64,000 bases of DNA from Clostridia bacterium. GTDB lineage: Bacteria > Bacillota > Clostridia > RGIG6154. The stretch spans positions 1 through 64,000 of the forward strand of contig JAGAJK010000087.1 in the NCBI GenBank assembly GCA_017626145.1. Direction: 5' to 3'. The notes beneath the pieces are model-generated. The model did not search any database. It was not told the origin of the DNA and saw only the letters and a list, made by a program, of their open reading frames with translations. The position numbers were made by a program, and so were the translations under genes. Shown one piece after another: positions 4,030 to 60,112 of the stretch (its first letter is position 1; each line of letters starts with the position of its first letter).

Positions 4030-4100
4030 TAAAATTCACCTCGTTTCCAATGTCGTCTGAATTTGATTACTAAAATGGCGCAAAGCCATAAAAGTCAAAT

Positions 4101-4215
4101 TAAAAAGTCAAGATTTTCCGCACAGAAAAACCTTGACTTCAAAAATCAAATATAGGCTTCTCCTCGGCAGGACTTACGCTTTCGCACCTGCTGTCTGCGG
4201 AAAATGTGTTGTTAC
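4101..4215 (-). ncRNA. Ribosomal protein L10 leader with intrinsic attenuator
   Basis: On the minus strand, 4200-4162 carries the signature halves of the L10 leader: a GCAGACAGCAGGTGC arm, a GTAAGTCCTGCCGAGG arm and the purine bulges between them. Downstream, 4138-4101 forms a long stem (AGTCAAG..CTTGACT with a paired inner T/A tract) followed by TTTTT, a typical intrinsic terminator. L10 or the L10-L12 complex binding this RNA is known to control expression in Firmicutes; attenuation rather than translational block is inferred from the terminator. Confidence 0.88.
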
Positions 4216-4226
4216 ACAACTTTTGT

Positions 4227-11938: not shown

Positions 11939-12218
11939 GGACTGTAAAAAATCATCGATTTTTTACAGTCCTTGTTAGGGAATAGGAAAAAATGTTGCAG
12001 AACGGACGAACTGAGCTGTAAATGCCTGTTCAAAGGCATTTACAGGTACCCGAAGCTGTACGATGGTACAGCGAGTTAGGCGAAGTTCGTTCGAGCAAAA
12101 AGGCTTACCTAATAGAAAAAATATCGTACAAAAACGATATTTTTCCTTAAGTGTGTATTTATTTTTTCAATTTTGACAAACTTATCACATTGTAGATACT
12201 ATTATTTAAGCCTTTTTG
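11939..12218. repeat. Hairpin-rich mosaic repeat, copy B
   Basis: Inverted, shorter copy of the 1-468 element. It keeps both outer blocks but has only 16 nt (12063-12078) where copy A has 204 nt. With its flanks, that short segment makes a GCTGTAC-GATG-GTACAGC hairpin at 12053-12070. Terminal palindromes are 11939-11971 and 12016-12045; the 12-bp inverted pair flanking the distal module is at 12096-12107 and 12207-12218. It separates a rightward gene from the leftward histidine kinase gene. Confidence 0.9.
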
Positions 12219-32433: not shown

Positions 32434-32451
32434 TAATCTAATAAACAGAAT

Positions 32452-32552
32452 GTTTCTCTGTTACTGACGGGTTTGCAGAAATAACTGCATGGGAGCAGAG
32501 AGTTAAAACGCCGACCGTCTGGGCAGATTTCTATATTGAAGTCTGTCTTTTT
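32452..32552 (+). ncRNA. ZTP (pfl) riboswitch with terminator expression platform
   Basis: The RNA has the two parts of the pfl aptamer. The first is a helix 32455-32460 with 32496-32501 enclosing TTACTGACGGG and the hairpin 32474-32478/32485-32489. The second is the conserved 3' block CGCCGACCGTCTGGGCA at 32509-32525. The last bases of that block start an 8-bp terminator stem (32524-32531 with 32538-32545) followed by TCTTTTT, so ZTP binding should prevent termination. ZTP accumulates when 10-formyl-THF is short. The genes downstream (IMP cyclohydrolase, glyA, fhs) are typical targets, which supports the call. Confidence 0.9.
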
Positions 32553-49778: not shown

Positions 49779-50702
49779 ATGCTTTACCCTATGCTTATGA
49801 AACCGGGCTTCAAGGAAGTAACCTGGGGCGGAGCAAAGCTCAGAACATTATATAATAAGGAAATAATAAGTGACAAAACGGGTGAAAGCTGGGAAATTTC
49901 CTGCAGAACGGATTTACCGTCAATTATCGTAAACGGCGAATTTGCAGGTCAAAGCTTTTATGATGTATATATGAAATATTCAAAGGAAATTTCAGGGAGA
50001 GAAAATTTTGAATTTCCATGGCTCGTGAAATTTCTTGATGCAAAGGAATATTTGTCGGTACAGGTTCACCCCGATGACTGCTATGCAATTTCAAATGGCG
50101 ACGGTATGGGTAAAACCGAAATGTGGTATGTGGTTCAGTGTGAAGAAGATTCGCGTCTTATAGCAGGTTTTAACCGTGATATGGATAAGGAACTTATGGT
50201 AAAGACCGCCTGTGACGGAACGATTGCCGATTACCTTAATTCTGAAAAAGTGAAGGCAGGCGATGTATTCTTTATCCCTCCCGGAACAGTTCATGCAATA
50301 GGCGCAGGAATTTTTATTCTTGAGATTCAGCAGAATTCAGATGCAACCTACCGGCTTTTTGACTGGAACAGAGTGGATGCAAACGGAAACTCGCGAGAGC
50401 TTCACGTAAAGAAAGCTTCAGATGTTTCGCTGCTTGAAAAATCGCAGGGACTTACAAAACCGCTGTTGCTTGAAAACGGGGATTTACTTTTATCTGAATG
50501 CAGTTATTTTAAAACTGTTAAAAGAACTGTTAAAGAAAAGAGCGTTATAGAAAAGGGAATGACAGCACTTATTGTTATTTCGGGAGAGGGAATTCTCGGA
50601 GATTTAACTCTTAAACCGGGAGACAGCGTTCTTATTCCTTATTCAGCAGGCAATATTGAGCTTGCAGGAAGCCTTGAGTGTGTTCTTGTGACGTTACCCT
50701 AA
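49779..50702 (+). CDS. manA: Mannose-6-phosphate isomerase class I
   Basis: The 307-residue cupin-type metalloenzyme interconverts mannose 6-phosphate and fructose 6-phosphate. Zinc-ligand block LSVQVHPDD, GKTEMWYVV, and IPPGTVHAIGAGIFILEIQ are present. Follows the S41 gene by 16 nt with AAGGTGG. It may feed both mannose catabolism and GDP-mannose supply. Confidence 0.94.
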   Translation: MLYPMLMKPGFKEVTWGGAKLRTLYNKEIISDKTGESWEISCRTDLPSIIVNGEFAGQSFYDVYMKYSKEISGRENFEFPWLVKFLDAKEYLSVQVHPDDCYAISNGDGMGKTEMWYVVQCEEDSRLIAGFNRDMDKELMVKTACDGTIADYLNSEKVKAGDVFFIPPGTVHAIGAGIFILEIQQNSDATYRLFDWNRVDANGNSRELHVKKASDVSLLEKSQGLTKPLLLENGDLLLSECSYFKTVKRTVKEKSVIEKGMTALIVISGEGILGDLTLKPGDSVLIPYSAGNIELAGSLECVLVTLP

Positions 50703-50885
50703 TATATAATAGGAAGAAACTCCCTTGGATTTATCGTGTCAATACATATAAACGATGTTGTCGTTTGTGCAAAAATTATGTATATTTGATGTTCTGTAAT
50801 AAAAATGCACAACAAAAAAACGGAGAAATTTGTAAAAAAAAATAAAAAAGTCACTTTTGCGTAAATAAATGTCACAAAAATGATA

Positions 50886-50914
50886 TTTACAAATGTGAAA
50901 AAATTAAGTATAAT
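50886..50914 (+). promoter_or_regulatory. Promoter of ABC transporter operon
   Basis: TTTACA (50886-50891) and TATAAT (50909-50914) are 17 nt apart. The preceding gene-free sequence (50703-50885) is AT-rich with no clear structure. Confidence 0.8.
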
Positions 50915-50946
50915 GTAAGTAACAAAAAAATATGGAGGCGATTTTC

Positions 50947-51897
50947 TTGGCAAAATCTAACGATGTTGCAGTTAAGCCACGCAAGAAGGGTAAGGGCATT
51001 AACGGTACAAATACGATTCAGTTGTACTCACTTGCCGCAATTCCGGCCTTTCTGGTATTTGTATTTTCATACATACCGATGTTTGGTATCATAATTGCAT
51101 TCAAAAACTACAGATTCGATACAGGTATTTTCAACAGCCCATGGGTAGGTCTTGATAACCTCAAGGTATTCCTTGCGTCTGACGACTTCGCACGTATTGC
51201 TTATAACACTATCTCTATGAACCTGTTGTTCATGCTGGTAGGTACGACCTGTGCAGTTTTACTGGCTGTTGTTCTTTTTGAAATCACAGCAAGAAAAGCA
51301 GTAAAAACTTATCAGACAATCTTAATCACACCTAACTTCCTTTCATGGGTAGTTGTTGGTTATATGGGTTATGCAATTCTCCATCCTACAAGCGGTGTTG
51401 CAAACAGCATTATCCAGATGTTTGGCGGTAAGCCTATTAACTGGTACGCAGAGCCCGGCTATTGGCCATGGATACTTACAATTGCTTCCGAATGGAAGGG
51501 CGTAGGTATGAGCTCGGTTGTTTACTACGCATCTCTTATGGGTATCGATGCATCACTCTTTGAAGCAGCTAAGATTGACGGTGCTAACAGACTTCAGGTT
51601 GCATGGCACATCACAATTCCTCAGCTTGTTCCTGTTATCGTAGTTCTCTCAATTCTGAGAGTTGGTAACATCTTCAGAGGTGACTTCGGTCTGTTCTATC
51701 AGATGTCAAGAAACGTAGCAGACCTTTACGAAACAACAGACGTTATGGATACATACATTTTCCGTGTAATGCGTATCTTTGGTGACTTCTCACTTTCATC
51801 TGCTGCAGGTCTTATGCAGTCAGTAGTAGGTTTCATCACAGTTGTTGTTACAAACTTTATAGTTAAGTTTATTGACCCGGAAAAATCATTATTCTAA
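50947..51897 (+). CDS. ABC sugar permease, LplB/YteP type
   Basis: The 316-residue protein has six transmembrane helices and the EAA loop FEAAKIDGANRLQVAWHITIP that docks the ATPase. It belongs to the carbohydrate-uptake class 1 permeases (LplB/YteP). The start is TTG at 50947, 7 nt after GGAGG; ATG at 50932 precedes the ribosome site. 18 nt before the second permease. No ATPase is in the window, so a shared MsmX-type ATPase is likely. Confidence 0.93.
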   Translation: MAKSNDVAVKPRKKGKGINGTNTIQLYSLAAIPAFLVFVFSYIPMFGIIIAFKNYRFDTGIFNSPWVGLDNLKVFLASDDFARIAYNTISMNLLFMLVGTTCAVLLAVVLFEITARKAVKTYQTILITPNFLSWVVVGYMGYAILHPTSGVANSIIQMFGGKPINWYAEPGYWPWILTIASEWKGVGMSSVVYYASLMGIDASLFEAAKIDGANRLQVAWHITIPQLVPVIVVLSILRVGNIFRGDFGLFYQMSRNVADLYETTDVMDTYIFRVMRIFGDFSLSSAAGLMQSVVGFITVVVTNFIVKFIDPEKSLF

Positions 51898-51915
51898 GAA
51901 GGAGGTAATAATTAA

Positions 51916-52812
51916 ATGATTAAGTCAAGAAGCAGTATTGTATCACAGATTATACTTAACACAATTATTATCATCCTTTGTTGTATAATCATCTATCCGT
52001 TCCTTCTGGTAGTAGGTGCCAGCTTTACGGAAGAAAAAGCTTTGGTTGAATTCGGTTATAACATTATTCCTGCCAAAGCAAGCTTAAAGGCATATGAATA
52101 TGTATTCAAAAATCCTGCAGCAATTTTAAACGCATATAAGATTACATTTATTTTCTCAGTAATGAGAATGGTACTTGCGGTTCTTCTGCAGGCAATGATT
52201 GCTTATCCGTTAACAAAGAAAATGCTTAAGGGCAGAGCAGGTCTTTCATTCTACTTATACTTCACAATGCTCTTTGGTGGTGGTATGGTTCCATCATACA
52301 TTTTGATTACACAGTATCTCCACCTTGACGATACAATCTGGGTATATGTTATCCCTATGCTTGTATCACCATGGAACATATTTATGATGAGAACCTTCTT
52401 TGCAGGTATTCCTAATGCGATTATTGAATCGGCTTATATTGACGGTGCGAATGAATACAGAATCTTCTTTACAATGATTCTTCCACTTTCTAAGCCAATC
52501 TTAGCATACATAGCACTTACAACATTCCTGGGTGCATGGAACGACTGGAACACATCAATGCTTTATATTAACGATGACAGTCTTATAAGCTTACAGTATT
52601 TGCTCCAGAGAATTATGAAGAATCTGGAAGTTTTACAGAACGCACAGGCAATGGGCGTAGATATATCTACACTCCAGAACGCGTCTGAAATTCCGGGTGA
52701 AACAGTTAGAATGGCAATGGCTGTAGTAGTTGCAGGTCCTGCGCTCGTAGTATTCCCATTCTTCCAGAAATACTTCGTAAGAGGTATCACAGTAGGTTCT
52801 GTAAAGGGCTGA
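51916..52812 (+). CDS. ABC sugar permease, YtcP type
   Basis: The 298-residue partner permease has six helices and EAA loop IESAYIDGANEYRIFFTMILP. With the LplB-type protein it forms the membrane channel for the sugar delivered by the lipoproteins encoded downstream. Preceded by GAAGGAGG. Confidence 0.93.
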   Translation: MIKSRSSIVSQIILNTIIIILCCIIIYPFLLVVGASFTEEKALVEFGYNIIPAKASLKAYEYVFKNPAAILNAYKITFIFSVMRMVLAVLLQAMIAYPLTKKMLKGRAGLSFYLYFTMLFGGGMVPSYILITQYLHLDDTIWVYVIPMLVSPWNIFMMRTFFAGIPNAIIESAYIDGANEYRIFFTMILPLSKPILAYIALTTFLGAWNDWNTSMLYINDDSLISLQYLLQRIMKNLEVLQNAQAMGVDISTLQNASEIPGETVRMAMAVVVAGPALVVFPFFQKYFVRGITVGSVKG

Positions 52813-52858
52813 TATCATATCGGTTATTTAAGAACAGTGTTATTAAATTTAATACTCT

Positions 52859-52884
52859 GCCTTGCCACGATTTTTTGGCAAGGC
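52859..52884 (+). other. Intercistronic hairpin H1
   Basis: GCCTTGCCA (52859-52867) pairs with TGGCAAGGC (52876-52884); no T-run follows. First of four hairpins with the same GCCTTG/CAAGGC base and a different, compensated inner stem. ACTCTGC at 52854-52860 and GCAGAGT at 52898-52904 offer an alternative pairing. Confidence 0.8.
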
Positions 52885-52999
52885 TTGAGTTCTCTAAGCA
52901 GAGTGTAAAGAATTTTGCTCTGCGACATAAAAATATTTTATGTTACATATAACGCGAAAAGCGTTTTATGAATATAACAAAATGAAAGAGGAGAATAAC

Positions 53000-54532
53000 A
53001 TGAAAAAGTTTTTGGCAATTGTACTTGCAATGCTTATGGTACTTTCAGTATGTACAGCATGCAGTAAGTCAGGCGGCGACAACGGAGAAATAACACTTAC
53101 ATGGTATGTTCCGGGCGACAAGTATCCTGACACAGCTTTAGTAGTTGAAGAATTAAACAAGATTACAATGGAAAAAATCGGATGTAAAATCGACCTTCAG
53201 TTCATTGATACAGGTTCATTCCAGGAAAGAATGAATATGAATATGGCATCAAATTCTGATTATGACCTTACTTTTGTAGGCTACTTAAATCAGTTTGAAC
53301 CTGCAGCATCAAAGGGCGGACTTATGCAGCTTGATGAATTACTCAAGTTAGCACCGGGAATCACAGAAACAATTCCTGAATACATCAGAAATTCAGGCGT
53401 ATATATGGGCAAGACCTACGCTATTCCAAATATGCAGATTACAGCTTATGCACTCGCTGCAACAACACCAAAGGAATACGCTGATGCATTCAAGAAAGCA
53501 ACAGGTAAGGACGTTACAACTTTCACAAATTCATTACAGTATGAAGACTATATGGAATTTGTAAAGGCTAACTATCCGGGTGTTTACCCAATGAGAACAA
53601 GCTATGGTATGGGTTCATTCCGTAGCCAGGACGAAGGTTGGGATGCAAAAGATCCATTCTTCCGTACTCCTTTAAACGGTGGTTCTTTCTATCAGCTTTA
53701 TAAGGATTCAGAAAATAAGAAATTTAAAGTTATAAATGGTTTCAAAGAAGAAGAACTTACACACGCAAGAATGCGTGCAGATAAGCTTCACGAATATTTC
53801 AAAAAAGGCTGGATTCGTCAGGATATAGACTCAGTTCTTGATGAAGAAGCAGAACTGAAGCAGAAGAAATATGCTCTCTGGTATGGTACATATAAGCCCG
53901 GTATGGACGGTGAAGCATCGAACAGATACGGTTGGGAAACAGTTTCAACAAGAATTTCATCAGTATCAATCGGCTCAGCATCAGCTACAATGGTAGGTAT
54001 CGGTGCTAACTGTAAGCATCCTGAAGAAGCAATCAAGTTCATCGAATTAATGAACACAGATAAGGAAGCTTACAATTTAGTATGCTTCGGTATCGAAGGA
54101 AAGCATTATAACAAGGTTGGCGACGAAAGAATTGAATTAGTTGAAGGAAGCGGCTACAATCCAAATGCATCATGGAAATTCGGTAACCAGTTCAATGCAT
54201 ACCGTCTCCCGGGTCAGCCTGATGATGTTTGGGAACAGACAATTGAATTTAATAACTTAGGTTATGAAATGAGCAAGGTAAATCCCGATGTTACAACACT
54301 TGGATTTACCTTCAATCAGGAAGATATCAAGTCAACTGTAACAAAGGTTTCTGAAATTGATAACAAGTATATGGCTAAGAAGCACGGTTCAAAAGACCCT
54401 GCTACATATTGGGATCAGATGCTCGCAGAAGCAGATGCTGCAGGTAATCAGATTATTATCGATGAATACCAGAAGCAGCTCGATGCATTCTTTGAAGAAC
54501 ATCCTGAAAAGTTAGCCGAAATTGTTTGGTAA
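53000..54532 (+). CDS. Sugar-binding lipoprotein, DUF3502 type, paralogue 1
   Basis: The 510-residue extracytoplasmic solute-binding protein has a lipoprotein signal (LSVCTAC, Cys near 22), the mature domain from LTWYVPGDKYPDTA, and a C-terminal DUF3502-like segment (ITKVxE..YxxKxxGSKDPATYWD). It catches an oligosaccharide and passes it to the two permeases upstream. The ATG at 53000 follows GAGGAG. It is largely identical to paralogue 2, with clear divergence at about residues 150-260. Substrate unknown. Confidence 0.93.
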   Translation: MKKFLAIVLAMLMVLSVCTACSKSGGDNGEITLTWYVPGDKYPDTALVVEELNKITMEKIGCKIDLQFIDTGSFQERMNMNMASNSDYDLTFVGYLNQFEPAASKGGLMQLDELLKLAPGITETIPEYIRNSGVYMGKTYAIPNMQITAYALAATTPKEYADAFKKATGKDVTTFTNSLQYEDYMEFVKANYPGVYPMRTSYGMGSFRSQDEGWDAKDPFFRTPLNGGSFYQLYKDSENKKFKVINGFKEEELTHARMRADKLHEYFKKGWIRQDIDSVLDEEAELKQKKYALWYGTYKPGMDGEASNRYGWETVSTRISSVSIGSASATMVGIGANCKHPEEAIKFIELMNTDKEAYNLVCFGIEGKHYNKVGDERIELVEGSGYNPNASWKFGNQFNAYRLPGQPDDVWEQTIEFNNLGYEMSKVNPDVTTLGFTFNQEDIKSTVTKVSEIDNKYMAKKHGSKDPATYWDQMLAEADAAGNQIIIDEYQKQLDAFFEEHPEKLAEIVW

Positions 54533-54551
54533 TTTAAGTTAAAATAGCTCT

Positions 54552-54576
54552 GCCTTGTCGCTTAAAGCGACAAGGC
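54552..54576 (+). other. Intercistronic hairpin H2
   Basis: GCCTTGTCGC (54552-54561) pairs with GCGACAAGGC (54567-54576). Same base as H1 with inner TCGC/GCGA instead of CCA/TGG. No T-run. Confidence 0.85.
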
Positions 54577-54618
54577 AAGAGTTGCCTTTATAAAAACAAA
54601 TTATCAGGAGGATAAAAA

Positions 54619-56154
54619 ATGAAAAAGTTTTTGGCGATTGTACTTGCAATGCTTATGGTACTTTCAGTATGTACAGCATGTAACAAATCAGGCAATGACG
54701 ACGGAACTGTTACACTTACATGGTATGTTCCCGGTGACAAGTATCCTGACACAGCTTTAATAGTTGAAGAATTAAACAAAATTACAATGGAAAAGATCGG
54801 ATGTAAAATCGACCTCCAGTTTATTGATAGCGGTTCATTCCAGGAAAGAATGAATATGAATATGGCATCAAATTCTGATTACGACCTTACATTCGTTGGT
54901 TACTTAAACACTTTTGAAGGCGCAGCATCAAAGGGCGGACTTATGCAGCTTGATGAATTACTCAAGTTAGCTCCCGGAATCACAGAAACTATTCCTGAAT
55001 ACATCAGAAATTCAGGTGTATATATGGGTAAAACCTATGCAATTCCAAATATGCAGATTACTGCATATGCACTTGCAGCTCAGTCACCTAAGGAATATAC
55101 AGATGCATTTAAAGAAGCAACAGGACAGGATGTTGCAACATTTACAAATTCATTGCAGTATGAACCATACCTTGAATTTGTAAAAGCTAACTATCCTGAT
55201 GTATTCCCATTCCAGACTGCATACGGTACAGGTTCATTCCGTAGCCAGGATGAAGGTATGGATGCAAAGGATCCATTCTTCCGTACACCTATCTACGGCG
55301 GTGCAAGCAGCTATCAGCTCTATAAGGATTCTGAAAATAAGTGCTTCAAGATTATTAACGGTCTTAAGCATGAGGAACTTTCAAATACCAAAGCACGTGC
55401 TGAAAAGCTTCACGAATACTACAAAAAAGGCTGGATTCGTCAGGACGTAGATTCAGTACTTGATGATACAGCAGAAAAGAAACAGAAGAGATATGCTCTT
55501 TGGTTTGGTACATATAAGCCCGGTATGGATGGAGAAAACTTCGCTACATACGGCTGGGAAACAGTTTCAACAAGAGTTTCATCAGTATCAATCGGTTCAG
55601 CATCAGCTACAATGGTAGGTATCGGTGCTAACTGTAAGCATCCTGAAGAAGCAATCAAGTTCATCGAATTAATGAATACAGATAAAGAAGCGTATAACTT
55701 AGTATGCTTCGGTATTGAAGGTAAGCACTACAAAAAGGTTGGCGATGAAAGAATTGAATTATTCGAAAACAGCACATATAAGCCAAATGCTTCATGGAAG
55801 TTCGGTAATCAGTTCAACGCATACCGTCTCCCCGGTCAGCCTGACAATGTTTGGGAGGAAACAATCGAATTCAATAACTTAGGTTATGAAATGAGTAAGG
55901 TAAATCCTGATGTTACAACACTTGGCTTCACATTTAATAAGGAAGATATCAAGTCAACAGTAACAAAGGTTACAGAAGTTGGAAATAAATATAAGTGTAA
56001 ATCTACAGGCTCAAAAGACCCTGACACATATTGGGATAAGATGATTGCTGAAATGGATGCAGCAGGTAACCAGATTATTATCGACGAATACCAGAAACAG
56101 CTTGATGCATTCTTTGCAGAATATCCTGAAAAGCTTGAAGATATAGTATGGTAA
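54619..56154 (+). CDS. Sugar-binding lipoprotein, DUF3502 type, paralogue 2
   Basis: The 511-residue protein shares the signal peptide and most of the mature sequence with paralogue 1. Differences cluster in the middle (YEPYLEFVKANYPDVFPFQTAYG and the IYGGASSYQLYKDSENKCF segment), where the sugar site is expected, so ligand range may differ. AGGAGG is 7 nt before the ATG. Divergence by substitution with intact frame shows a maintained duplicate. Confidence 0.93.
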   Translation: MKKFLAIVLAMLMVLSVCTACNKSGNDDGTVTLTWYVPGDKYPDTALIVEELNKITMEKIGCKIDLQFIDSGSFQERMNMNMASNSDYDLTFVGYLNTFEGAASKGGLMQLDELLKLAPGITETIPEYIRNSGVYMGKTYAIPNMQITAYALAAQSPKEYTDAFKEATGQDVATFTNSLQYEPYLEFVKANYPDVFPFQTAYGTGSFRSQDEGMDAKDPFFRTPIYGGASSYQLYKDSENKCFKIINGLKHEELSNTKARAEKLHEYYKKGWIRQDVDSVLDDTAEKKQKRYALWFGTYKPGMDGENFATYGWETVSTRVSSVSIGSASATMVGIGANCKHPEEAIKFIELMNTDKEAYNLVCFGIEGKHYKKVGDERIELFENSTYKPNASWKFGNQFNAYRLPGQPDNVWEETIEFNNLGYEMSKVNPDVTTLGFTFNKEDIKSTVTKVTEVGNKYKCKSTGSKDPDTYWDKMIAEMDAAGNQIIIDEYQKQLDAFFAEYPEKLEDIVW

Positions 56155-56183
56155 AAACAGAACTATAAATTTTTAATACACAT

Positions 56184-56212
56184 TGCCTTGCCGCACTTAG
56201 TGCGGTAAGGCA
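56184..56212 (+). other. Intercistronic hairpin H3
   Basis: TGCCTTGCCGCA (56184-56195) pairs with TGCGGTAAGGCA (56201-56212) with one G-U pair. Inner stem CCGCA/TGCGG is again compensated relative to the other copies. Confidence 0.85.
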
Positions 56213-56352
56213 TAAGCGGTATATAAAATCCTTTTTAATGCCATTAAAAAATTGCTGTAAACACAGCAAAAGGCTTTAAATAAACAACATTAAAATTTAA
56301 AAAGGGGAATTTTTGCATTAAAGATGCAAAGAAAGAAATCGGAGGGAAAAAC

Positions 56353-57873
56353 ATGAAAAAATTTTTATCAATCGTTTTAGCCACATTGATGATACTTTCG
56401 GTATGTACAGCTTGTGGCGGAAATGCTGGCAAGGGTGACGGATCTGTAACACTTACATGGTACGTTCCCGGTGACAAGTATCCTGACACAGCACTTGTTT
56501 CAGAAGAACTCAGCAAAATTACAATGGAAAAAATCGGATGCAAAATTGATATTCAGTTTATCGATGAAGGTTCATTCCAGGAAAGAATGAATATGAATAT
56601 GGCATCAAGTGCTGATTACGACTTAGCATTCGTTGGATATTTAAATACATTCCAGCAGGCAGCATCAAAGGGCGGCCTTATGGAACTTGATGAGCTTTTA
56701 AAGTCAACTCCTGCACTTGTTGAAGCAATTCCTGAATATATTATGAATTCAGGTATTTATCAGGGAAAAATGTATGCAATCCCTAATATGCAGATTACAG
56801 CTTCAGCAACAGCTGCAGTAGTACCTAAGGATTATGCAGATGAATTTGGTCTTGATTTTTCTAAAATCAACGACACATTTGACTATGAACCATATTTAGA
56901 ATGGATTAAAGCAAACAAACCTGATGTATTCCCATTCAGAACTAACTGGGGTGTATCATCATTCAGAAGCACAGACGAACAGACTCCTGCAGGTGGCGAT
57001 TTCTTTAACTTCACGAACAATGGTGAACAGCTTTATTCAGCAGTTAAAGATAGTGAAAATAAGAAGTTTACTGCCGTATTCGGTTATGAAGAAGGCGTAG
57101 GTAATACAAGAGTTAAGGCTGATAAGCTTCACGAATATTATAAAAAAGGTTGGATTCGTCAGGATGTAGACTCAGTTCTTGATGATACAGCAGAACATAA
57201 GCAGAAGAGATTCGGTATCTGGTTCAGCACATATAAGCCGGGTATGGACGGTGAATCACGTAACAGCTTAGGCTATGAAACAGTTTCAACAAGAATTTCA
57301 CCTGTTTCACTTGGTTCAGCAGCAGCAACAATGATTGGTATCGGTAAGGATTGTAAGCATCCACAGGAAGCTATCAAGTTTATCGAATTAATAAATACAG
57401 ATAAAGAAGCTTACAACTTAGTATGCTTCGGTATCGAAGGTAAGCATTATAAGAAGGTTGGCGAAAACAGAATTGAATTGATTCCTAACAGCGGATACAA
57501 TCCAAACGCATCATGGAAATTCGGTAATCAGTTCAACGCATATTTTATGCCGGGTCAGTCTGACACTGTTTGGGAAGAAACAAAAGAGCTTAATGACCTT
57601 GGTTATCAGCAGAGCTTAGAAAACCCAAACCTTTCAACATTCGGCTTTACCTTTGTTCAGGATGATATCAAGACATCAATCACAAAGGTTACAGAAGTTA
57701 AGAACAAGTATAACTGCTTGAGAACAGGTTCAAAGGATCCCGCAACATATTGGGATAAGATGGTTAAGGAAATGTACGATTCAGGTCTCCAGGTTATCAT
57801 CGATGAATACCAGAAACAGATGGACGAATTCCTTGCCGCAAATCCTGACGTAATCGACCAGATTAAATGGTAA
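56353..57873 (+). CDS. Sugar-binding lipoprotein, DUF3502 type, paralogue 3
   Basis: The 506-residue protein is the most divergent of the three, sharing the framework but differing in 90-270 (YQGKMYAIPNMQITAS.. and the FFNFTNNGEQL region). Signal LSVCTACGG carries the lipid cysteine. Preceded by GGAGGG. It is the third tandem solute-binding gene after a single permease pair. Confidence 0.93.
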   Translation: MKKFLSIVLATLMILSVCTACGGNAGKGDGSVTLTWYVPGDKYPDTALVSEELSKITMEKIGCKIDIQFIDEGSFQERMNMNMASSADYDLAFVGYLNTFQQAASKGGLMELDELLKSTPALVEAIPEYIMNSGIYQGKMYAIPNMQITASATAAVVPKDYADEFGLDFSKINDTFDYEPYLEWIKANKPDVFPFRTNWGVSSFRSTDEQTPAGGDFFNFTNNGEQLYSAVKDSENKKFTAVFGYEEGVGNTRVKADKLHEYYKKGWIRQDVDSVLDDTAEHKQKRFGIWFSTYKPGMDGESRNSLGYETVSTRISPVSLGSAAATMIGIGKDCKHPQEAIKFIELINTDKEAYNLVCFGIEGKHYKKVGENRIELIPNSGYNPNASWKFGNQFNAYFMPGQSDTVWEETKELNDLGYQQSLENPNLSTFGFTFVQDDIKTSITKVTEVKNKYNCLRTGSKDPATYWDKMVKEMYDSGLQVIIDEYQKQMDEFLAANPDVIDQIKW

Positions 57874-57910
57874 ATTTAACGTAATCTGATTTTAAATCAG
57901 CAAATAACCT

Positions 57911-57938
57911 TGCCTTGTCACCTTTTGGTGACAAGGCA
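57911..57938 (+). other. Intercistronic hairpin H4
   Basis: TGCCTTGTCACC (57911-57922) pairs perfectly with GGTGACAAGGCA (57927-57938) around TTTT. No T-run follows, so it is not an ordinary terminator. Confidence 0.88.
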
Positions 57939-58084
57939 CGAGTGGTTTCTAAAAGGGATCAAAAAACTTATAAAATATTGCAACATAGGCCGCAAAAGGC
58001 TTTATATAAAGGATTTTAAGAGATGTAAAAATATCGTTTTCCGGGGGAAAAACGATGAAATCTTTCAAAACGGAGGTAAAAAAT

Positions 58085-60112
58085 ATGAAAAACAAAATTT
58101 TTGCTGTCATTTTAACAGTTTGTATGTTATTTTCAACAATAAGTATGACAGCACTGGCAAACGATGCAGAAGAAGTTGAAATTCTTGCGGAAGAAGCAGT
58201 TGTTGAAGAAATCGAACTTGCTTCAGACGAAGAAATCGACCTTCAGGCATCAACAGTTACAGCACAGCTTTCGGGTTCAGATATTGATGGAGCAACAAAT
58301 GTAGCACTTTCAATTAAACTTGTTGTTACATTCCCGACAGCATTACCCGCAAATACAGATGTAAGCGGAATTACTTTAACAGGCGGAACACAGGATGTTG
58401 AACTTCAAATCGAAGGAACATCAAAAACAGCAGCATTTTCAAATGTAAAAATAACAACACCTGTTCTTGAAACAGCAACAACCTACACTTTAAACGTTCC
58501 TGCACTGGGTTCAAATGCAGAAGCAAGCTTCTCATTCACAACAGTTCCATATGGTTATATTGCATATGAAGATTATAATGACAGATTTAACGCATATGCT
58601 ACGTCAAAGCAGAACGGAACACAAGATGCTTCAACAGGACACCTTGTTGATACAAATTCAGATGGTAAAAAAGATTCTTTAAAGATTGGCGGCGGTAACT
58701 TTAATACTTTGTATTTCCCAACACTTATTCCTCTTGCAACTACTGATGAAACTATTATTGAAGTAAGAGCTATGTATTCTAAAGGTGGCGGTGGTGGTTC
58801 ATTTTATCAGCAGGACGGAACATTTAATGGTACAGGTGACTCAAATAACTACGGACTTATTGGTATCGGTGGAAACAATCTTGGTAATAATCAGGGTCAT
58901 GTAGGTGTGCTCCGAGATGGTAGCGGCAATTTGTCTTATGGTAAAGGCGAACCTAACCTTACCTTTGATACAGGCTACAAAATTTATGCAAACACATGGT
59001 ACACATTCAGAATTATGCTTGACCCACAAGGCGGTAGCTTCAGACTCTATGTTTTTGACGATGCAGGAAATGCATACGTAGGTCCTTCACAGGATACAAG
59101 ATGGGGCAACGCTTGGTCTGTTAACAATTTCAGAGCGATATATGGTGGTTATAACTGGTATGTTCAGCAAACAACAGATTATATCCATATGTGGAGAAAC
59201 GGCGCATTTAAGGACATCACAGCAACCTACGGTAAGAACTTAAACCTTGCTGATGCAGTTGGCGTTCCGGGTTCGATTTTTGTAACAACACTTAAGTTTG
59301 AGAACGATGTTACACTTCAGGAGCTTTCAGCTTTAAGAATCAACAACGGTGCAACACTTTCACCTTCACTTGTTGATTCAAAGACAGTAGCGTTAACAAT
59401 TTCAAACCTTGCGTACAACAAGAACTACATTTTAGACATTCCACAGTTCGGAAACAACAAAGCTAAAACATTTGCATTCACAACAGAATCAGCTCCTGTT
59501 CCACTTGAATCCGGTGACTATGCGTTCACACTTGCAGACGGAACAGCAGTAACAGAGCTCAGTGCAGTAAGAGCAGATTCAACTATTGAATATGTAGTAG
59601 ATGCTGACCTTTTAACAGCAACACCCGATGCATATAAGAACGTAATATTTGAAGATGCTTTAGGTAACACAGTTGAAGCAGAATGTTCATTAGGTGCAAA
59701 CGGAAAATACGTTGCATATCCTAAAAAAGGTCTTGCTTACGGCACAACTTATACATTCAAGTGGCCTACAGCACAGAAGGACGAAAATGGTAAAACAAGA
59801 TATAAACTATTTACCTTCACAACTGAAGCTGCTCCTTTCTCAGCAACTGCTGACCCTATAGTGATTTCTGGTTCAAGTGTAACAGCATCAGCTTCAATTA
59901 CAGATAATACAGGACTTAACAACAAGATTAAAGCGATGCTCGTTGTATACGATGGAGAAGGAAAAATCGCTAAAGTAACTGCTCAGGATATGACACTTGC
60001 TGCAGGAGTAAACTCAATCAACCTTACAGCAACAGCACCGGCGGCAGCAAGAGCTAAGCTCTATATTTGGGGCGGATTTAACGGTATGAGCAATATTATT
60101 CTGGCTCAGTAA
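58085..60112 (+). CDS. Secreted Ig-like/lectin-like surface protein
   Basis: The 675-residue protein has a signal peptide (1-24), an acidic linker rich in Glu (25-55), a bacterial Ig-like (Big_5/SbsA-like) domain at about 56-150, a concanavalin/LamG-like domain at about 155-370, a second Ig-like domain at about 375-470 and more beta-rich modules to the end. No cell-wall anchor is seen. ATG at 58085 follows GGAGG. Its position after the solute-binding genes suggests glycan capture outside the cell. It is not an identified enzyme. Confidence 0.8.
   Translation: MKNKIFAVILTVCMLFSTISMTALANDAEEVEILAEEAVVEEIELASDEEIDLQASTVTAQLSGSDIDGATNVALSIKLVVTFPTALPANTDVSGITLTGGTQDVELQIEGTSKTAAFSNVKITTPVLETATTYTLNVPALGSNAEASFSFTTVPYGYIAYEDYNDRFNAYATSKQNGTQDASTGHLVDTNSDGKKDSLKIGGGNFNTLYFPTLIPLATTDETIIEVRAMYSKGGGGGSFYQQDGTFNGTGDSNNYGLIGIGGNNLGNNQGHVGVLRDGSGNLSYGKGEPNLTFDTGYKIYANTWYTFRIMLDPQGGSFRLYVFDDAGNAYVGPSQDTRWGNAWSVNNFRAIYGGYNWYVQQTTDYIHMWRNGAFKDITATYGKNLNLADAVGVPGSIFVTTLKFENDVTLQELSALRINNGATLSPSLVDSKTVALTISNLAYNKNYILDIPQFGNNKAKTFAFTTESAPVPLESGDYAFTLADGTAVTELSAVRADSTIEYVVDADLLTATPDAYKNVIFEDALGNTVEAECSLGANGKYVAYPKKGLAYGTTYTFKWPTAQKDENGKTRYKLFTFTTEAAPFSATADPIVISGSSVTASASITDNTGLNNKIKAMLVVYDGEGKIAKVTAQDMTLAAGVNSINLTATAPAAARAKLYIWGGFNGMSNIILAQ

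Follow-up and report, generated by a model that had tools for sequence, protein, structure and literature searches.

The window analysed here is a stretch of 64,000 nucleotides (positions 1 to 64,000 of contig JAGAJK010000087.1, assembly GCA_017626145.1) from a Clostridia bacterium of the RGIG6154 lineage. It carries a gene cluster in which two ABC permease genes are followed by three tandem binding-protein (SBP) genes of the SBP_bac_1/DUF3502 type and then by genes for secreted Big_5-like and beta-helix proteins (Table 1). The best relatives of PermB are found in other Clostridia MAGs, at 62-65% identity. The likely start of SBP1 is preceded directly by a Shine-Dalgarno sequence, AAAGAGGAG. 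The promoter-like site before PermA is the only one on the + strand with at least 10 of 12 matching positions upstream of the permease-SBP part or within it, and none of that quality was found on the + strand in the four gaps described below. This single strong match, together with the gene order, suggests that the genes from PermA to the SBPs form one operon.

Table 1. Genes, stem-loops and other features of the permease-SBP cluster, in window positions (bp, base pairs in the stem; energies are folding energies with their z values).
Feature	Position	Strand	Description
Promoter-like site TTTACA-17-TATAAT	50886..50914	+	11/12 match
ABC permease A (PermA; BPD_transp_1)	50932..51897	+	Pfam PF00528
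ABC permease B (PermB)	51916..52812	+	Pfam PF00528
H1 stem-loop	52854..52890, core 52859-52884	+	9 bp, loop 8, lower stem ACTC/GAGT; -20.5 kcal/mol, z -6.2
Small-hairpin cluster between H1 and SBP1 ribosome site	52897..52978	+	MFE z -4.6 for 52893-52999; possible 5' protectors
SBP1 lipoprotein (SBP_bac_1 / DUF3502)	53000..54532	+	Pfam PF12010; start taken from sequence
H2 stem-loop with lower stem	54545..54584, core 54551-54577	+	12 bp, lower stem AGCTC/GAGTT; -26.9 kcal/mol, z -7.8
SBP2	54619..56154	+	SBP type; 85% DNA identity with SBP1
H3 stem-loop	56184..56212	+	13 bp, one G-U; weaker outer pairing ATAC/GTAT; -23.6 kcal/mol, z -4.4
Small hairpin 5' of SBP3 start	56310..56332	+	weak, equalled by 32/500 shuffles; possible 5' protector
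SBP3	56353..57873	+	74-76% DNA identity with SBP1/2
H4 stem-loop	57906..57947, core 57911-57938	+	12 bp, lower stem AACC/GGTT; -23.9 kcal/mol, z -6.5
Small hairpin in leader of Big_5-like gene	58032..58057	+	equalled by 12/500 shuffles
Secreted protein, Big_5-like domain (next cluster gene)	58085..60112	+	Pfam Big_5 1.9e-7

One stem-loop (H1 to H4) occupies each of the four successive gaps PermB-SBP1, SBP1-SBP2, SBP2-SBP3 and SBP3-Big_5 gene. All four were found with the positions and stems given by the first-pass annotation, which had placed them after the permease and each binding-protein gene. That description fits H2, H3 and H4 as elements following an SBP gene, while H1 follows the permease and precedes SBP1. 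The best-stem score was 24, 31, 32 and 31 in the H1, H2, H3 and H4 gaps against a shuffled mean of 12-14, and it was reached by 1, 0, 0 and 0 per 1000 dinucleotide shuffles, respectively. The outer positions GCCTTG are invariant in stems of 9-13 bp, and G-C pairs are present at both stem ends: each stem begins with GCC/GGC, and two neighbouring G-C pairs lie at its top or close to it (CC in H1, GC in H2, CCGC in H3 and CC in H4). In addition, the lower flanks can pair below a small internal loop, least clearly in H3, a pairing absent from the earlier list. The stated lack of a terminator T-run was borne out, the longest T run past any stem being 3 (range 1-3). The 8 nt past the stem contain 4, 2, 2 and 2 U in H1 to H4, and the 12 nt past it contain 6 U in H1 and 5 in H4. 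At 18 nt, the PermA-PermB gap is too small to hold a stem-loop of this kind, and none is present in the 47 nt past the Big_5 gene.

A second, small hairpin before the next start has good support in gap 1 and weak support in gaps 3 and 4; none was found in gap 2 (SBP1-SBP2). Within window positions 52854-52923, the ACTCTGC at the foot of H1 can also pair with a GCAGAGT about 40 nt downstream, whose alternative partner is a CTCTGC still further downstream; the two folds, found in gap 1 only, may exclude each other. A scan of 50700-58200 against Rfam found no family at the gathering score. Elsewhere in the window, a ZMP/ZTP riboswitch (32450-32531, + strand) and a ribosomal protein L10 leader (4092-4218, - strand) scored above it.

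When the cores are aligned, 42 of 44 cells pair (95.5%). Counting from the first G of GCCTTG as pair 1, pair 7 is C-G in H1 and H3 and T-A in H2 and H4, pair 9 is A-T in H1 and H4 and G-C in H2 and H3, and pair 11, with the stems aligned by position, is T-A in H2, A-T in H3 and C-G in H4. No tree of four leaves accommodates the splits at pairs 7 and 9 together, so that, barring exchange between copies, a minimum of three two-sided changes must be assumed. Two pairs have both sides changed, and the covariation score was reached by 15 of 500 shuffles with n = 4 sequences, a statistic that is modest, as four sequences permit, and suggestive. The first-pass annotation had taken the covariation as evidence for selection on RNA structure. 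The covariation itself is real, but it is no proof of such selection, since there are four paralogous copies with only two two-sided pairs and since DNA template switching at inverted repeats, proposed as a source of compensated changes with supporting mutation patterns, can yield them as well (PMC8794818). The G-U of H3, which pairs in the sense RNA only, mildly favours RNA.

A covariance model built from H1-H4 was searched over the organism's own genome of 2.78 Mb, where the four hairpins were the only convincing sites and the next match had E = 4. Exact-pattern searching of the same genome gave no convincing copies beyond H1-H4 either, so that the further copies anticipated earlier as a test did not appear. 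The hairpins are therefore locus-specific, and they were probably multiplied together with the SBP genes, since the spacers can be aligned over much of their length, beyond the hairpins, at 54% mean column identity and the SBP genes are duplicates (85, 74 and 76% pairwise DNA identity for SBP1-3); the stems are better preserved than their surroundings. The whole fourth spacer, used as a query, matched 41 bp on C90 and, less strongly, other sites; these matches do not amount to a repeat family.

The gaps were compared over some 460 kb of the organism's genome, made up of the window and further stretches, with thresholds chosen post hoc. All 4 of the 4 hairpin gaps have a strong stem without a T-run, compared with 8 of the 105 remaining co-directional gaps (Fisher 9e-5). 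Of these eight, two on C32 adjoin genes of sugar isomerase-like and kinase-like type and one on C75 lies between surface-protein genes, the genes being called by eye from translations. A fourth DUF3502 SBP paralogue (L008, on C75), 87% identical to SBP1, stands alone; the 1.5 kb read to either side of it contains no permease genes. Unlike SBP1-3, it ends in a canonical terminator, CCTTCGCCTTTTTCTT.

Other repeated structures were seen in the same genome. In the window, two pairs of long inverted repeats, 1-141 / 12078-12218 and 345-468 / 11939-12062 (99% and 100%), flank an 11.5-kb segment that is a candidate composite or invertible element, and a hairpin in this element, GGACTGTAAAAAATC..GATTTTTTACAGTCC, is also present in further gaps of the genome. 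On C2 (L098 2450-2770), an array of GGCTCCCTT(A/G) units with repeated GGGAGCTGTCAACGAAGTTGACTGAGGGAT elements lies 3' of an ABC binding-protein gene.

Among the permease relatives searched for an H1-type hairpin, no conserved counterpart was found after PermB, and a strong hairpin is missing from most of the PermB-SBP gaps examined in them. Two genomes of the same family have a hairpin with no T-run and a sequence unrelated to H1-H4, one at the PermB-SBP junction (L147) and one at the junction of an SBP and a secreted-protein gene (L152); these positional matches were found by looking (n = 2). In two MAGs (L015 and L017), a similar hairpin with no T-run lies between PermB and a secreted-protein gene, about 35-60 nt past the permease stop, with one compensated change (C-G to T-A) between the two. 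The model search of the family genomes returned one new site, on C144 of G005 (L149 4301-4327, E 8e-4), which was ruled out as an SBP hairpin, being of terminator type with a T-run by a uracil-permease-like frame. This hairpin reads TGCCTTGCCGCA-A-TGCGGTAAGGCA followed by T6. Its 24 stem letters match H3 throughout, the G-U included, and the surrounding genes are unrelated. Of 391 genomes from the class, just 2 contain the stem pattern derived from H2 and H3, and this pattern has a single further match.

Hairpins at such positions have precedents. The intercistronic REP hairpins between the malE binding-protein and malF permease genes of E. coli stabilise the upstream message; they belong to a dispersed genomic repeat family, whereas H1-H4 are confined to one locus. 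In ABC operons of cellulolytic Clostridia, stem-loops located 3' of the SBP genes shift the ratio of SBP to permease transcript via partial termination and stability (Wu et al. 2022, PMC9045158). H1-H4 resemble them in their place at the SBP genes of an ABC importer operon, in their long GC-rich stems with an internal unpaired region and low-U 3' tracts, and in comparable folding energy. H2, H3 and H4 lie directly 3' of an SBP gene, as the ABC-operon terminators do, and H1 after a permease gene. The published hairpins occur mostly after SBP genes at the cluster 5' end, and clusters with 3' SBPs have them in 23.5% of gaps (PMC9045158). Here, in contrast, the SBPs are at the cluster 3' end in three tandem copies, one hairpin stands before the first SBP, and the four share a sequence core.

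The second precedent is the cip-cel operon of R. cellulolyticum, whose stem-loops guide cleavage of the mRNA and shield its ends (Xu et al. 2015, PMC4423207; Wang et al. 2023, PMC10311766). The stem-loops that direct cleavage have GC pairs at the bottom and top of the stem (Type I), RNase Y is the hypothesised nuclease, and a small second hairpin shields the 5' end of the downstream fragment (PMC10311766). The locus described here likewise has several intercistronic stem-loops within one probable operon, the Type I arrangement of GC pairs in all of H1-H4, and second small hairpins in gaps 1, 3 and 4. Genes for RNase Y (769 bits) and for an RNase J-family enzyme (672 bits) are encoded in the genome. 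The locus differs from cip-cel in operon content and in gap 2, which is without a second hairpin, and cleavage and protection are here predicted. For the stabilisers of selective RNA processing and stabilisation (SRPS), a U content of at most 5 and a poly(U) of at most 3 have been given (PMC8219983); H2-H4 fall within these values, and H1 does so on its 8-nt tail, a borderline case with 6 U in 12 nt. The stable stem-loop in a gap inside one operon that characterises SRPS is present in all four cases, taking the genes as a single operon.

We consider it fairly probable that H1-H4 are intercistronic mRNA stem-loops of the SRPS kind. A single transcript from the promoter before PermA would cover both permeases, the three SBP genes and probably the downstream secreted proteins, and an endonuclease, probably RNase Y, would cut beside each hairpin. 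Each SBP message would then keep a strong 3' hairpin (H2, H3 or H4) slowing 3'-5' exonucleases, and the SBP1 and SBP3 messages would also carry smaller hairpins 5' of the start, slowing 5'-3' exonucleases. The permease segment would decay faster, and since it is encoded once against three SBP copies, SBP would exceed permease. In addition, a minority of the transcripts may end at the hairpins. SRPS with hairpin-bracketed SBP messages is favoured because the stem ends, the small hairpins, the RNases and the published Clostridia systems fit. It is supported by the gap contrast and the single strong promoter match, by the cip-cel-like layout of gaps 1, 3 and 4 with both RNase genes present, by the canonical terminator of the lone paralogue, and by the hairpins at matching junctions in the two family genomes. 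Against it, H1 is atypical, given the 23.5% figure of PMC9045158 and the hairpin-poor PermB-SBP gaps of relatives, and the small downstream hairpins are weak in gaps 3 and 4 and missing in gap 2. The interpretation given by the first-pass annotation is partly supported: the roles it proposed (protecting 3' ends, setting processing sites or staggering SBP over permease) correspond to the best-supported reading, whose mechanism has been shown in related Clostridia. Here, cleavage, protection and the effect on stoichiometry are deduced from anatomy and precedent.

The main rival is that the hairpins are weak internal intrinsic terminators of Type III/IV (Wu et al. 2022), giving partial read-through and a falling expression staircase, which we regard as a doubtful but serious explanation. 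The position class is the same, the fold is similar (a long GC-rich stem, a small internal loop, a paired lower stem and few U), 16 R. cellulolyticum stem-loops assayed terminated 20.7-96.1% of transcripts (PMC9045158), and H1 and H4 have some U past the stem. Against this, no T run exceeds 3, and a stem stripped of its U tract gave no termination in R. cellulolyticum (PMC9045158). Moreover, termination at H1 would lower SBP relative to permease, contrary to the usual need, and because H1 is placed after the permease it favours processing or 5' protection over termination. Canonical Rho-independent termination was rejected, as the T run right after the stem is missing in H1-H4.

Passive by-products of tandem duplication are a rather unlikely source: the hairpin would have been copied with the SBP genes and its arms matched by DNA template switching, without a selected function. 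The alignable spacers, the duplicated SBP genes, the lack of further copies in the genome and the ability of template switching to produce compensated stem changes (PMC8794818) agree with such an origin. The stems, though, remain almost fully paired within spacers that have diverged widely, the G-U of H3 pairs in the sense RNA only, and family genomes have hairpins of other sequence at equivalent junctions.

There is only a slim chance that the near-invariant GCCTTG/CAAGGC, with its drifting inner stems, is recognised by an RNA-binding factor specific to this locus or by a sequence-selective endonuclease. If so, the three SBP messages would be handled as a set by a private four-site processing code, not by generic barrier hairpins. 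Very improbable, and rejected, is an operator for a regulator binding double-stranded DNA at half-sites GCCTTG...CAAGGC: the outer half-sites are nearly identical and the dyads near-perfect, but the half-site spacing differs (14, 13, 15 and 14 nt in H1 to H4), the inner arms vary with compensation, the promoter before PermA has no such dyad, and H3 is imperfect as a DNA dyad. Least credible of all are mobile REP/BIME-like copies, which would share the repeated intergenic hairpins with a common core but should be dispersed in many copies, against four sites in the genome and the single further match in the class.

Taken as SRPS elements, H1-H4 are of a mechanistic kind already known, and what is modestly new is their arrangement in four copies around the SBP genes. 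ABC importers make their binding proteins in excess over the membrane parts despite a common transcript. With four related hairpins around three SBP paralogues, the locus offers a clean natural series, from a little-known Clostridia lineage, suited to testing the published processing model. It would extend this model to clusters whose SBPs lie at the 3' end, a setting in which these hairpins are reported to be uncommon.
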